This document shows, piece after piece, positions 1 through 5,400 of a stretch of DNA of 64,000 nt (position 1 is the first letter of the stretch; each line of letters begins with the position of its first letter). The stretch is taken from NCBI GenBank assembly GCA_016213105.1, contig JACRBN010000025.1, forward strand, positions 1-64,000, in the 5' to 3' direction. The DNA is from Chloroflexota bacterium (GTDB taxonomy: Bacteria; Chloroflexota; Anaerolineae; Anaerolineales; Villigracilaceae). The translations under genes were made by a program, and so were the position numbers. The notes under the pieces were generated by a model. It worked only from the letters and a program-made list of their open reading frames with translations. It had not been told where the DNA came from and did no database searches.

Positions 1-403
<403 letters not shown>

Positions 404-996: not shown

Positions 997-1005
997 TGCT
1001 ATACT
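997..1005 (+). promoter_or_regulatory. Extended -10 promoter of the FHA regulator
   Basis: TGC-TATACT is an extended -10 box with no good -35 at the expected distance. It lies 25 bp before the start codon at 1031, and a short TTGGAG ribosome-binding site lies between them. Confidence 0.55.
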
Positions 1006-1030: not shown

Positions 1031-1645
1031 ATGAATCCCAACACCCCCTACCTTTGCGATCCATCCAAACAGGAGCACCCGCTCGATCAGGCCGTCACCC
1101 GTCTTGGCCGCGCAGTGGAAAACGAGATCGTTATTGTCAGCCAGCGCGCATCACGGGATCACGCACACATCCGCCGCGAGGGACGACAAACCTTTTTGGA
1201 GGACATGGGCAGCACCAATGGAACCTATCTAAATGGGGAGCGAATATTGGGCAGCGTTCAATTACGGGACGGCGATCAGGTTTCCATCGGCGAGGTGTTA
1301 TTCATCTTCCATGACCCGGACACGACCACGCGCGAGACACCTTTCCCTGAATTGGAAATAAACATCGAGGCGGGCGCCGCACGATTGAACCGTCGCGTCA
1401 TTCAACTCTCCCCCAAGGAATTTTCCCTGCTTGCATTTCTTCACAAAAATCGCGGCAAGGTCTGTTCAAAGGATGATATCGGGCGGGCGGTATGGCCGGA
1501 ATATCAGGCGGGAATCTATGATTATCAGATCGAAAACCTCGTACGCCGCCTGCGAACCAAGATCGAGGAGGATGCCAACACACCCATCCTCCTGGTGACC
1601 ATCCGCGGAATGGGCTACAAATTGCTCGGAAAATCTGATATTTAA
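1031..1645 (+). CDS. FHA domain - winged-helix transcriptional regulator
   Basis: This 204-aa protein joins two domains. Residues about 20-100 form an FHA phosphothreonine-binding domain with the LGR turn, SRDH and GSTNGTYLNG motifs. Residues about 118-200 form an OmpR/PhoB-type winged helix (LSPKEFSLLAFL at the start, RGMGYKL in the wing). There is no receiver domain, so control by phospho-Thr recognition rather than phospho-Asp is inferred. The order resembles a reversed EmbR, where the DNA-binding domain comes first. The Ser/Thr kinase 96 bp downstream is the obvious partner: its autophosphorylated form could recruit this protein, or the kinase could phosphorylate it. Target genes are unknown; its own operon is a likely one. 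Start ATG follows TTGGAG. Confidence 0.88.
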   Translation: MNPNTPYLCDPSKQEHPLDQAVTRLGRAVENEIVIVSQRASRDHAHIRREGRQTFLEDMGSTNGTYLNGERILGSVQLRDGDQVSIGEVLFIFHDPDTTTRETPFPELEINIEAGAARLNRRVIQLSPKEFSLLAFLHKNRGKVCSKDDIGRAVWPEYQAGIYDYQIENLVRRLRTKIEEDANTPILLVTIRGMGYKLLGKSDI

Positions 1646-1741
1646 TCATAGGCAAGCTGGTAGCCGGTTGTTAGCCAGCGGATAGGTTGATATTTACAAG
1701 CGGGGGTAATATCTACATCGACAGAAAGTTGGAGCACAGAG

Positions 1742-3250
1742 ATGCCATCATCCACCCTCGAAGGAACAACGCTAGGAAAATATCGCATCGTCAAGGCGCT
1801 CGGACGCGGCGGCATGGCGCAGGTCTACAAGGCCTACCATCCGCAGCTGGACCGCTACATGGCCGTCAAGATTCTGCGTTCCGACCTGGCCGAAGAAGAT
1901 GATTTTCTGGCGAGGTTTCGACATGAGGCGCACGCAGTCTCCGGGCTGCGCCACGCCAATATCGTGCAGGTCTTCGACTTCGATGTACAGGATGACCTGT
2001 ACTACATGGTCATGGAATTGCTCGAAGGCGACACCCTGCGCGCACTCCTGAACGATTACCGCGTACATAATCAGCGGATGTCCCTGGCCGAGACCATACG
2101 CATCCTGACCGACGTACTCAGTGGTTTGGCCTACGCCCACGACGAAGGCATCATTCACCGCGACATCAAGCCCGCCAATATCATGCTCAATAAAAAGGGC
2201 CAGGCCGTGCTCACTGATTTCGGCATCGCGCAAATCATCGGCAGCACACAGCATACCGCCTCGGGCGCGTTGATGGGCACGCTCAATTACATGGCTCCCG
2301 AGCAGGGCCTCAAAAATCAGTGCGACCGCCGCAGTGATATTTATTCATTGGGCATTGTCCTGTTCGAAATGCTGACAGGCTACACGCCCTTCGATGCCGA
2401 CACGCCGCTGGCAATCCTGATGAAACACCTGAACGATCCCCTGCCCCTGCCCACCGAGATCGATCCCAGCCTGCCTCCTGAGTTGGAAAAGATCGTGCTC
2501 AAGGCTTTGGCGAAGGATCCAGATGACCGCTACCAAAGCGCGGAGGAAATGGCCGAGGCGCTTCAACGGGCGGCCGCCCAACTCACCACGGGTGACCAAC
2601 CCACAGCGTTGCCGCCGGTCAAATTCCCGCAGCAGGCCGTCTTCTCGGGAGCCTCGCGCCGGCGGATCACCGATCACCGTTTCGCGGAGGCAGACACCGA
2701 CGCGGGAATCAAACTGACGGGCGGTTCCCCATCCCCGGATCCTGAGCCCGTCTCCCCGCTGGACGGTTTGATCTCCAGCCTGACCGCGACATTCCGCAAA
2801 TGGCGCATCCATCGGATCAGCATTCCATCGGCCGTATTCGGCGGGCTGACCCTATTTCTCCTCGCCAACATGTCGATCATCATGTTTACCATATTCAGCG
2901 GGCGGAGCATCATGGCGCACGCGTGGCCGGTCGAACTTTTCCTACTGGCCGGCCTGCTCGCGCTGATCGGCTGGGGGATCGAAATCCACTGGCTGATGAT
3001 CCCAAGCGGGATCGTGTTTGGCAACGCGCTGCTCCTGGCCTATTGTTCCATCACCGGCCGCTGGCAGGACTGGGCCTTCCTGTGGGTGTTCGAGGTGCTG
3101 GCGCTATGGGTTTCCATTTTCATCCCGATCCGCATTCACAGGATCGAGGGCATCCAATCCGTTTGGACAAGGGCTTTCGGTTTGGGGTTCACTCTTGTGT
3201 GCATGCTGCTTTCCTCAATCACCATCTATCTGGCATTTCTGTTCGCCTGA
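1742..3250 (+). CDS. Membrane Ser/Thr protein kinase (PknB type) with polytopic C-terminal domain
   Basis: This 502-aa protein carries a complete eukaryotic-like kinase domain at residues about 10-275: the GRGGMAQVY glycine loop, AVKIL lysine, HRDIKPANIML catalytic loop, DFG and APEQ. A hydrophilic linker of about 80 residues follows, then a hydrophobic region (about 358-502) with several membrane segments. The C-terminus is unusual for PknB kinases, which normally have one helix and an extracellular sensor. Here it contains two degenerate repeats beginning IPS and ending in W-P/V-x-E (WPVE near residue 395, WVFE near 448). The same repeat forms the next gene's product. The FHA regulator upstream is the likely phospho-dependent partner. 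The stimulus is unknown but is probably sensed in the membrane. Confidence 0.92.
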   Translation: MPSSTLEGTTLGKYRIVKALGRGGMAQVYKAYHPQLDRYMAVKILRSDLAEEDDFLARFRHEAHAVSGLRHANIVQVFDFDVQDDLYYMVMELLEGDTLRALLNDYRVHNQRMSLAETIRILTDVLSGLAYAHDEGIIHRDIKPANIMLNKKGQAVLTDFGIAQIIGSTQHTASGALMGTLNYMAPEQGLKNQCDRRSDIYSLGIVLFEMLTGYTPFDADTPLAILMKHLNDPLPLPTEIDPSLPPELEKIVLKALAKDPDDRYQSAEEMAEALQRAAAQLTTGDQPTALPPVKFPQQAVFSGASRRRITDHRFAEADTDAGIKLTGGSPSPDPEPVSPLDGLISSLTATFRKWRIHRISIPSAVFGGLTLFLLANMSIIMFTIFSGRSIMAHAWPVELFLLAGLLALIGWGIEIHWLMIPSGIVFGNALLLAYCSITGRWQDWAFLWVFEVLALWVSIFIPIRIHRIEGIQSVWTRAFGLGFTLVCMLLSSITIYLAFLFA

Positions 3251-3275
3251 TCAATATTTAGACTGGAGGTCTATC

Positions 3276-3986
3276 ATGAAACCTGAACGTGTATTCAACC
3301 TGGTCGCTGGCGCAACCCTGCTCCTCACGGGCGCAGTCCTGCTGATGGGAAATGTGTTTCTCGCCACCAAAGCCTGGCGGCTCTGGCCGATCATCGTGGT
3401 TCTTGCAGGGCTGGGATTGACTGCGCCGGGTTTCCTCGGCTTATCCCGCCGCGGATTTGGAGCATTCTTCATCCCCGGCATCCCCGTACTGACCACGGGC
3501 GGCATCCTGCTGCTCGCCAGCCTGTCCAACCGCTGGGACGTATGGGCCACATTCTGGCCGTTGGAAATTCTGGCCCTTGCGCTTGGTTTTGCCCTAGCGG
3601 CAATCTTCATGCGCGTGCCTGCCCTGGCCATTCCAGCTTCCATCCTGGGCTTCAACGGGCTGATGTTCCTGTTCTGCGCTGTGACCGGTTTGTGGCAAGC
3701 CTGGGCGCTGCTGTGGCCGCTTGAGTTTCTCTCCATCGGCGTCGGCTTGTTCATTCTCGGCTTCGCCATCCGCTCTTCGGGAGTGAGGCTGGCCGCAAAC
3801 ATCCTGTTCGCCATCGCGGGCGGAGGCTTCTTCATCACCGCCTTCATCAGCAGTTTCAACAACATTGCCGTCCTGAAATTTGCGGTCCCCGCCCTGCTGC
3901 TGGTTACCGGCTTGCTCCTGACGGGAACGTTCTTCCTGCGCCAGTCCAAAGAATCCACGGCTACGTCTGCGCCTGTGGAACAGTAA
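3276..3986 (+). CDS. Polytopic membrane protein sharing the kinase's membrane repeat
   Basis: The start is ATG 3276, seven nt after GGAGGT; the frame stays open further upstream, but only inside the kinase gene. The 236-aa product is almost entirely hydrophobic with about seven or eight predicted helices. Two clear repeats (residues about 65-110 and 117-162) each carry IP near the start and W-x-x-WA-x-x-WPLE near the end. A weaker first copy has WRLWPII. The kinase's C-terminal repeats align with these, for example CAVTGLWQAWALLW here and YCSITGRWQDWAFLW in the kinase. The pattern resembles LiaI/LiaF-like (DUF5668) membrane segments. A co-sensor or regulator of the kinase is inferred. Confidence 0.75.
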   Translation: MKPERVFNLVAGATLLLTGAVLLMGNVFLATKAWRLWPIIVVLAGLGLTAPGFLGLSRRGFGAFFIPGIPVLTTGGILLLASLSNRWDVWATFWPLEILALALGFALAAIFMRVPALAIPASILGFNGLMFLFCAVTGLWQAWALLWPLEFLSIGVGLFILGFAIRSSGVRLAANILFAIAGGGFFITAFISSFNNIAVLKFAVPALLLVTGLLLTGTFFLRQSKESTATSAPVEQ

Positions 3987-3993
3987 GCGCCAT

Positions 3994-4047
3994 CAAAAAA
4001 ACAAGGCAATTTGACGATGTTGCATCGTCAAATTGCCTTGTTTTTAA
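3994..4047. terminator. Bidirectional intrinsic terminator
   Basis: A perfect 19-bp stem (4001-4019 with 4023-4041) is flanked by an A-run on the left and a T-run on the right. It sits between the end of the kinase operon and the convergent glycosyltransferase. Confidence 0.93.
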
Positions 4048-4137: not shown

Positions 4138-5400
4138 TCACGAGTTTCGATATTCATAGAAATGTCCTTCGATGAGCTTGACTGCAACGTCAACTCCATG
4201 TTCGGCGCCTATCAATTGACCCAGGTCACGGGCGCGGCTTTGAATGTCAGCGGCGCCCACCCTTTCGATTGCAGATGCGAGTCGCCTGGCGGATAATTGT
4301 CCAATCGAAATGGGCGCTGGGCCGACTCCCAATGTATGAACCCGCTTTCCCCAAAAGGGTTGATCGGCCGTGTGTGGAATCACGATCTGCGGGATGCCAG
4401 CCCGAAAACCCGCAGCGGTCGTGCCTGCGCCGCCGTGATGAATGAGCAGGCTGCAGCGCGGAAGCAGCCAATAATGCGGAACGGCATCCAGATACAAAAC
4501 GTCCTCCTGGATTTGCCGAGGGTGATACCCTCCCCAACCCGTCAACATGATTGCGCGGCGGTTGGTCGATGCAACTGCGCGCAAGGCTTCGCGGGAGATG
4601 CGTTCCGCGTCGCGATTGACCATGCTGCCAAAGTTGACGCAGATGGGCGCATCACCCGCGGACAGAAAATCCACCAATTCATGCGGCGGCTGATAATTTT
4701 CATCGTCAAGAAAGAGATAGCCTGTGACGTGGGCGTGCTCCGGCCAATCGCCCGGGCGGGGCAAAACGTTTGGGCTGTAGGCGCACAGCAGCGAGGTCCG
4801 CAGGTGGAGCGGCTGGGATTTGTCGAAGGGCCAATAAAGCTTTTTCGGGTAGTCCACATCGGGGTGGGCGCGGCGCGCAGGCCCATATCCGCTGTTGCCC
4901 CCGAACCAAAAGGCTTGCGCAGTCATCCAATGGGAGAGATAACTCAAGATGCCCGGCGGAAACTGCGCGGCAGCCGGGTTGGGGAAGGCGCGCGTCGGCG
5001 CAAACATCGGGAAGGTTTGAACGGACACGTCGGGGACGCCATGTTCGCGCGCCCAGGAATGACCGCCCACCGTGAAGAGAAACGAGTGGATCAGAAAATC
5101 CGCCCCTTCGCAGGCCGCAAAAGCGGCGCGCGATACCTGCGGCGCAATGGAGAAAACATAGTCCCGTATGGAGGCGATGACGCGCACGGGATTCGTGCCC
5201 GCCGCATTGATGCGCACACTGATTTCTTCAGGGTCGCCCGCGAGCGGGACAAAGGGAACGTGATGCTCGCCGACAAAACCTGCGAAACGATGCGGCGCGG
5301 CAAGTTTCACTTCATGACCATGCCCTTGAAGTCCAAGAGCCAGAGCCAGGAAAGGCTGAACGTCGCCGCGTGAACCGTAGGTGAGGATCGTTATCTTCAT
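4138..5400 (-). CDS. GT1-family glycosyltransferase (sterol/macrolide glucosyltransferase-like)
   Basis: This 420-aa protein has the GT-B layout of the UDP-glycosyltransferase superfamily. The N-terminus reads ILTYGSRGDVQPFLALALGL, the hallmark of sterol 3-beta-glucosyltransferase and MurG-like family-1 enzymes. The C-terminal donor site reads HHGGAGTTAAGFRAGIP followed by PHTADQPFWG. It should transfer a sugar from a nucleotide donor to a lipid or small hydrophobic acceptor at the cytoplasmic face. The acceptor cannot be read from sequence; glycolipid or hopanoid glycosylation and detoxification are all possible. It is monocistronic and divergent from the next gene. Confidence 0.88.
   Translation of the reverse strand: MKITILTYGSRGDVQPFLALALGLQGHGHEVKLAAPHRFAGFVGEHHVPFVPLAGDPEEISVRINAAGTNPVRVIASIRDYVFSIAPQVSRAAFAACEGADFLIHSFLFTVGGHSWAREHGVPDVSVQTFPMFAPTRAFPNPAAAQFPPGILSYLSHWMTAQAFWFGGNSGYGPARRAHPDVDYPKKLYWPFDKSQPLHLRTSLLCAYSPNVLPRPGDWPEHAHVTGYLFLDDENYQPPHELVDFLSAGDAPICVNFGSMVNRDAERISREALRAVASTNRRAIMLTGWGGYHPRQIQEDVLYLDAVPHYWLLPRCSLLIHHGGAGTTAAGFRAGIPQIVIPHTADQPFWGKRVHTLGVGPAPISIGQLSARRLASAIERVGAADIQSRARDLGQLIGAEHGVDVAVKLIEGHFYEYRNS

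Follow-up and report, generated by a model that had tools for sequence, protein, structure and literature searches.

The window analysed here (64,000 nucleotides, i.e. positions 1 to 64,000 of the forward strand of contig JACRBN010000025.1, GenBank assembly GCA_016213105.1, from a Chloroflexota bacterium of the class Anaerolineae) encodes a regulator made of an FHA domain and a winged helix, a membrane Ser/Thr kinase and a free membrane protein (MEM), all on the plus strand. This trio is probably a Lia/PSP-like envelope-stress system of Anaerolineae, in which the Ser/Thr kinase and the FHA-winged-helix activator replace the histidine kinase and the response regulator. New in this analysis are a candidate DNA target of the trio, a triple direct repeat, and its probable regulon, through which the pathway becomes testable. 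The features concerned are:

1031..1645, plus strand: FHA-winged-helix regulator, 204 amino acids (Pfam)
1097-1291, plus strand: FHA domain of the regulator, residues 23-87 (Pfam, 9.3e-19)
1325..1327, plus strand: codon of regulator Thr99, in the linker motif DPxxT between FHA domain and winged helix, a candidate phospho-switch or structural residue
1397-1624, plus strand: OmpR-type DNA-binding domain (Trans_reg_C) of the regulator, residues 123-198 (Pfam, 7e-19)
1661..1686, plus strand: operator-like triple direct repeat TAGCCGGTTGTTAGCCAGCGGATAGG with 11-bp spacing, a conserved pattern and putative operator
1707..1712, plus strand: -10-like hexamer TAATAT, at a fixed spacing of 20 nt past the triple repeat
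1742..3250, plus strand: membrane Ser/Thr kinase, 502 amino acids (Pkinase, Pfam, 1.5e-55)
about 1781-2545, plus strand: kinase domain of the membrane kinase
about 2639-2704, plus strand: juxtamembrane motif of the kinase, with S302 and T319
about 2822-3244, plus strand: five-helix kinase tail with the repeats K1 and K2
3276..3986, plus strand: MEM, 236 amino acids, with LiaI/LiaF-like hairpins
3282-3437, 3453-3611 and 3609-3773, plus strand: MEM hairpins M1, M2 and M3, followed by an unmatched fourth hairpin (M4)

A contig collection yielded 21 loci with relatives of the cluster, and of 396 Anaerolineae genomes 62 had a match at E 1e-30; the loci are only partly de-duplicated, L024 being identical to L077 and L028 sharing sequence with L123. 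Their gene maps fall into three groups, clades A, B and C, of which clade A has the gene order of the window. The 46 clade A loci contain the regulator in 45 cases, the kinase in 42, MEM above threshold in 33 and a DUF2807 (Toastrack-type) gene in eight, several loci ending early. The expectation of the first-pass annotation that the three genes are kept together in related genomes is borne out: in 41 of the 45 regulator loci, a kinase gene lies behind the regulator gene on the same strand, at 400 nt or less in 34 of the 41, and the genes are together in most loci. Genes intervene between regulator and kinase in L015, L017, L062, L063, L073 and L075 (the extra gene at 1555-2373 of L017 encodes a polytopic protein with no Pfam match). 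The four regulators without a kinase comprise one locus that stops at the contig end (L026) and three separations (L059, L066, L070). In L063, L067 and L073, MEM is located at a greater distance or on a different contig, and in L025 the 3.4 kb behind the kinase hold no MEM. In L045, L051 and L053 (G187, G219 and G343), two opposite-strand genes just upstream match the FHA part of the regulator.

Across the 396 genomes, the clade A regulator is found in 27, the MEM orthologue (threshold E 5.3e-61 or better, next matches at 2e-21) in 25 and both in 24, with one genome having MEM only, three the regulator only and 368 neither (Fisher 4e-34 without phylogenetic correction; counts hand-made from two tables and including G129, whose regulator is a contig-end fragment with E 1.6e-35). 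The positive genomes span nine GTDB families of one class. In clade B (L084-L105), the kinase gene overlaps or abuts the regulator gene in 19 of the 22 loci, one transmembrane segment is predicted in 18, none of the 22 loci has a MEM, and the C-terminal parts of the two kinases that were scanned gave no Pfam match. In clade C, the kinases are on the opposite strand in 8 of 13 loci; L111-L118 show FHA-winged-helix genes beside one or two such kinases, with a PD40 repeat in one of the two scanned.

The kinase and MEM genes are 25 nt apart, as fits the single operon proposed in the first-pass annotation. The 96-nt gap between the regulator and kinase genes, however, contains a conserved promoter-like element, so that the three genes are not simply one operon: a probable regulated promoter divides the regulator gene from the kinase and MEM genes, and a three-gene operon as the full picture was rejected. 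Indeed, the pattern TAGCC-N6-TAGCC-N6-TAGG, i.e. three repeats at 11-bp spacing, is present in 36 of the 41 gaps behind the regulator gene, and degenerate copies in L073, L076 and L078 scored better than 200 of 200 shuffles, which preserved base composition only. A TANNNT hexamer starts exactly 20 nt after TAGG in 30 of the 33 distinct gap sites and 21 nt after it in the other three (only distinct sequences were counted). Where other genes split the regulator from the kinase, the repeat copy can precede the first intervening gene. Copies occur near an inserted MacB-type cluster (L067) and before genes for STAS-domain proteins (Pfam) that lie between regulator and kinase in L062 (1171-1587) and L063 (5442-5852). 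Tandem 11-bp direct repeats that replace the -35 element upstream of a -10 are typical of PhoB/OmpR-type activators, and this arrangement is found here at the sequence level.

The predicted target recurs beyond the cluster. In the window's own genome (5.39 Mb), the short pattern has a single mismatch-free match, which is the window site at 1661-1686; only the exact and extended patterns discriminate in this genome. With up to three mismatches, the extended pattern matches three places there, against one for the reversed control: the window site; C14:37190, upstream of genes for the ATPase and two permeases of an ABC-2 transporter; and C7:126000, upstream of a gene for a family-2 glycosyltransferase. 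The last two both have TACAAT at offset 20. The glycosyltransferase gene with its repeat (L194, G000 C7) is followed by opposite-strand genes that read, by eye, as a histidine kinase and a response regulator. In 24 regulator-positive genomes, the extended pattern (up to two mismatches) gave 49 matches, distributed over 23 of them, and the reversed pattern four. In 24 genomes with no regulator match, of which 20 belong to families with positive members, the extended pattern gave two matches and the reversed control one. Because sites behind the regulator gene served to define the pattern, the 29 matches at the main loci are partly circular. This does not apply to the remaining 20, one of which (G294) lies directly behind a regulator without a nearby kinase. 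A -10 at offset 20 accompanies 18 of 21 off-locus sites (two from the window's genome and 19 others; G234 C8 was omitted, its downstream sequence being identical to that of G254 C430), and two of the three failures are inside open reading frames. The matches G234 C52, G234 C8 and G254 C430, which lie inside long open reading frames without a -10, were treated as chance. G315 C25 has no -10 at offset 20, yet an HlyIII gene lies downstream.

In brief, the predicted off-locus targets include: transporters of the ABC-2 kind (G231 C26, G211 C165, G387 C24; the permeases and the G211 protein by resemblance); MacB-type ABC systems (G021 C899 and G331 C182, both permeases confirmed by Pfam; at G390 C160 an ABC ATPase with MEM and DUF2807); MFS transporters (G231 C30, G387 C51); ECF sigma factors (G231 C101, G211 C131); LiaF-like proteins (G390 C138 by Pfam; G349 C102 by reading only, with no Pfam match); HlyIII proteins (G315 C25 by Pfam; G387 C63 by resemblance); and an acyltransferase (G380 C132). 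Targets without an evident envelope role include G021 C328 and G294 C141. Taken together, the predicted targets fit an output on envelope and transport genes.

The membrane parts of MEM and kinase were cut into hairpins and compared profile-to-profile (29 of 33 MEM and 33 of 42 kinases aligned). A repeat occurring about twice in the kinase and two to three times in the next protein had been read from the single sequence, and these comparisons uphold it. Indeed, (i) within MEM, M2 matches M3 (98.1%, E 7.6e-14) and M1 matches M2 (92%, E 6.5e-7), M1 against M3 reaching 4.3% only, (ii) kinase K2 matches M3 (98.8%, E 4.9e-17) and K1 matches M2 (93%), with K1 against K2 at 73%, and (iii) the whole kinase tail matches the whole MEM (99.1%, E 1.3e-18), while all reversed-profile controls stayed below 5%. 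The fourth MEM hairpin (M4) and the last kinase segment (K3) matched nothing in these comparisons and were discarded as further repeat units. In the best alignment, K1-K2 pair in order with M2-M3; the kinase tail thus resembles a two-hairpin form of the central part of MEM. The AlphaFold2 model of MEM (14 sequences, mean pLDDT 77) consists of helical hairpins with eight long helices. Given a cytoplasmic kinase domain, the loops rich in tryptophan would point outward.

The link to LiaI/LiaF is drawn from sub-threshold Pfam matches and from gene neighbourhoods. At E 0.1, PF18917 (LiaI-LiaF-like_TM1) is matched by 19 and PF22570 by 6 of 29 MEM, with no Toastrack match in MEM itself. In the seven neighbourhoods of MEM paralogues that were fetched (L126-L132), a PspC gene is present in L127, L128 and L130, a LiaF-TM or LiaI-LiaF-TM1 gene with a Toastrack-family domain in L128, L129 and L132, and a match to the DUF2807 profile in L126, L131 having none of PspC, LiaF or DUF2807. 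MEM had been proposed as co-sensor or inhibitor of the kinase; it could instead be a membrane-stabilising effector, LiaI-like, and neither of the two, a serious alternative that is nevertheless not the favoured one. MEM is likely a target itself, with repeat copies ahead of its gene in L061, L062, L071, L074 and L080, and G390 carries a second MEM copy (L120, 4436-6879) with its own repeat, followed by a DUF2807-like gene and an ABC ATPase gene, with no kinase within the 7.6-kb contig. On the other side, the core hairpins of MEM occur in the kinase's own tail, which suggests that MEM and kinase interact.

The regulator was confirmed as an FHA domain joined to an OmpR-type DNA-binding domain (Trans_reg_C, 68.1 bits for a cut-off of 26.2), the FHA domain occupying the place of the receiver, which is not among the Pfam matches. 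In the 41 of 45 clade A regulators that were aligned (54-85% identity to the window regulator), the FHA core residues G26, R27, S41, R42, S61, N63, T65 and N68 are invariant, as is Thr99 of the linker motif DPxxT, a motif also present in the consensus of the clade B (22) and clade C (13) regulators. Thr99 is a candidate phospho-switch. The kinase, likewise, has the polytopic C-terminus ascribed to it: its AlphaFold2 model (16 sequences, mean pLDDT 75) places five long helices behind a low-confidence linker (pLDDT below 50 at residues 283-287 and 292-337). Residues K43, E62, D141, N146 and D159 and the activation-loop residues T169 and T172 are invariant in the 33 of 42 kinases aligned. No PASTA repeat was matched by Pfam, and the curated model PknB_PASTA_kin scored 374 of the 450 bits required, over residues 12-282 only. 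Within the juxtamembrane linker, whose sequence varies (mean entropy of 2.96 bits at residues 322-355), lie the motifs VxSGxxR and FAxx[DE]T; their residues S302 and T319 are present in all 33 aligned kinases, and T319 is a candidate FHA docking site. PP2C-type phosphatases encoded elsewhere in the genome (three matches) could reset the switch.

A somewhat unlikely alternative is that the FHA domain acts as an internal switch as in GarA/OdhI, the kinase phosphorylating Thr99 and the FHA domain then folding back to turn DNA binding on or off without stable kinase docking. The persistence of DPxxT in all three clades, whatever the kinase, speaks for it, but Thr99 is near the last FHA strand and may be purely structural, and the kinase has an invariant Thr of its own within an otherwise variable linker.

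It is improbable that a different OmpR-type regulator binds the triple repeat and that the FHA-winged-helix protein regulates something else. The genome does contain 20 proteins (query included, E 1e-5) with a similar FHA or OmpR-type part; the repeat, however, tracks the FHA-winged-helix regulator across the positive and negative genomes, sits behind the regulator gene even in G294, and has a counterpart in clade B, where a search with a loose pattern and without a chance control gave a TTGGC-type 11-bp triple repeat 20-120 nt downstream of the regulator gene in 7 of 22 loci. That an ordinary kinase gene merely adjoins an unrelated regulator in an inherited, non-functional neighbourhood is very improbable: the positive genomes all belong to one class and synteny can persist, but the gene order persists in nine families, even with insertions and at 54-85% identity, a MEM gene apart from the cluster can have a repeat of its own, and the repeats recur ahead of unrelated genes with the same -10 spacing.

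Several results weigh against the reading of the trio as a Lia/PSP-like envelope-stress system: (i) the gaps of L025 and L083 lack the triple repeat, and G365 has no match at two mismatches, its gap copy being degenerate; (ii) with two mismatches, the short pattern is not enriched in the window's genome (47 matches against 285 for the reversed pattern); (iii) in G285 (L066), kinase and MEM are on another contig than the regulator, and G294 and G331 have a regulator without a nearby kinase and without a MEM orthologue; (iv) in 301 genomes from the phylum searched at E 1e-60, the window's own genome is the sole match, with 0 of the 300 others; (v) of the 42 clade A kinases, which include truncated ones, 33 have FAxx[DE]T letter for letter, as against 0 of 19 clade B kinases, and the motif was therefore rejected as a general FHA-docking motif; (vi) no PDB fold match was found for MEM at E 0.001, and the comparison with PF18917 suggested in the first-pass annotation did find a match in the window MEM (7.7e-4, 19.9 bits) but one below the curated cut-off of 27; and (vii) no DUF2807 match was found in the window's genome, so that the DUF2807 partner, present in 8 of 46 loci, was dropped as a fixed component.

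With these points counted, the Lia/PSP-like reading is retained, and we infer phosphorylation, DNA binding, the direction of control, the sensed signal and the role of MEM as follows. The tryptophan hairpins would sense a membrane or cell-wall insult, and MEM, in some genomes together with the DUF2807 protein, would modulate the kinase in the way that LiaF modulates LiaS. Autophosphorylation of the kinase would take place at the activation-loop residues T169 and T172 and possibly at T319 in the juxtamembrane linker, and the FHA domain would dock on a phospho-Thr, whereupon the regulator would be phosphorylated (T99 being a candidate) or rearranged. Its winged helix would then bind the three repeats and activate, in class II fashion, the kinase-MEM pair (positive feedback) as well as genes for transporters, LiaF-like proteins, ECF sigma factors and envelope enzymes. 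Class II activation is most likely because the third repeat lies about at the -35 position. The short membrane-to-promoter pathway proposed earlier is thereby supported in part, through the candidate DNA target and the predicted regulon.

On balance, the trio would provide a further kind of transduction pair for Lia-like clusters: a Ser/Thr-kinase equivalent of the two-component system whose OmpR-type activator carries FHA in place of a receiver, and which has a defined triple-repeat operator and a regulon for envelope defence. From clade to clade, the sensor would change and the logic of kinase, FHA-winged helix and 11-bp repeats would be kept. This would mean that a dedicated, local route from membrane to promoter can run on phospho-threonine signalling in bacteria, and that its sensor, regulator, operator and targets can all be read from the genome; the triple repeat offers a directly testable candidate operator in a little-studied bacterial class.

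The surroundings of the cluster comprise:

1-403, minus strand: 16S rRNA gene, partial (model positions 1-397), divergent from the regulator gene
997..1005, plus strand: TGCTATACT, likely -10 of the regulator gene's own promoter (from the upstream alignment, function inferred)
3998..4044, strand not assigned: terminator-like hairpin behind the cluster, with T-runs on both strands

The sequence TGCTATACT is seen in 7 of 7 rows of the upstream alignment (the window and six close orthologues). The contigs of several orthologues stop 0.6-2 kb ahead of the regulator gene, possibly a sign of the same 16S rRNA neighbourhood. A gene on the minus strand at 4138-5400, glycosyltransferase-like by resemblance, faces the cluster.

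Among known systems, PhoB/OmpR operators share the tandem 11-bp direct repeats upstream of a -10 in place of the -35, whereas here the repeats are three of the TAGCC/TAGG type and the regulator carries FHA, not a receiver. GarA and OdhI, whose FHA proteins are among the PDB matches of the regulator, are small FHA proteins likewise controlled by a Ser/Thr kinase, but without a DNA-binding domain. The FHA part of the regulator has EmbR as its best PDB sequence match (E 5.9e-21), and the parallel drawn earlier with EmbR holds in this respect. Its domain order is opposite: in the parts of PMC4601284 considered here, EmbR (SARP family) runs winged helix, BTA domain, C-terminal FHA, whereas in the window regulator the FHA domain stands first and no BTA domain was matched by Pfam, so that it does not have the composition of the EmbR family. 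EmbR/PknH of Mycobacterium tuberculosis also combines FHA and OmpR-type domains under a Ser/Thr kinase with a cell-envelope output, PknH differing from the polytopic kinase tail found here (PMC4601284 and PMC6213207, same limitation). EmbR-PknH is thus the nearest functional precedent, with a different architecture. No description of the FHA-winged helix/kinase/MEM combination was found in titles or abstract openings of the open-licence PMC articles listed by the searches.

The trio also resembles the LiaFSR/VraTSR-type systems. According to the portions of Ravi et al. 2024 (PMC11237479) used here, Toastrack domains (DUF2154, DUF4097, DUF2807) and LiaI-LiaF-TM are partners in envelope-stress clusters, which use two-component systems, LytTR, DUF2089 or HAAS-PadR; the words 'FHA' and 'threonine' do not occur in the main text of that article. 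The HAAS-PadR dyad of the same source is another proposed replacement of the two-component pair in Lia-like clusters, but has no kinase and belongs to another DNA-binding family. Shared with the LiaFSR/VraTSR type, as far as that source describes it, are LiaI/LiaF-like hairpins beside a kinase and a DNA-binding output protein, a Toastrack-family partner in some loci, and the predicted output on envelope and transport. By contrast, the histidine kinase and receiver-type regulator of Lia/PSP systems are replaced here by Pkinase and FHA-Trans_reg_C proteins, the hairpins are also fused to the kinase, and MEM is without a Toastrack match. The trio is not filed as a Lia system because the defining two-component pair is absent and the transmembrane match in the window is below threshold. 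If the reading proposed here is true, it adds a Ser/Thr-kinase branch to the Lia/PSP network, beside the histidine kinases and the LytTR, DUF2089 and HAAS-PadR outputs named in that part of PMC11237479.

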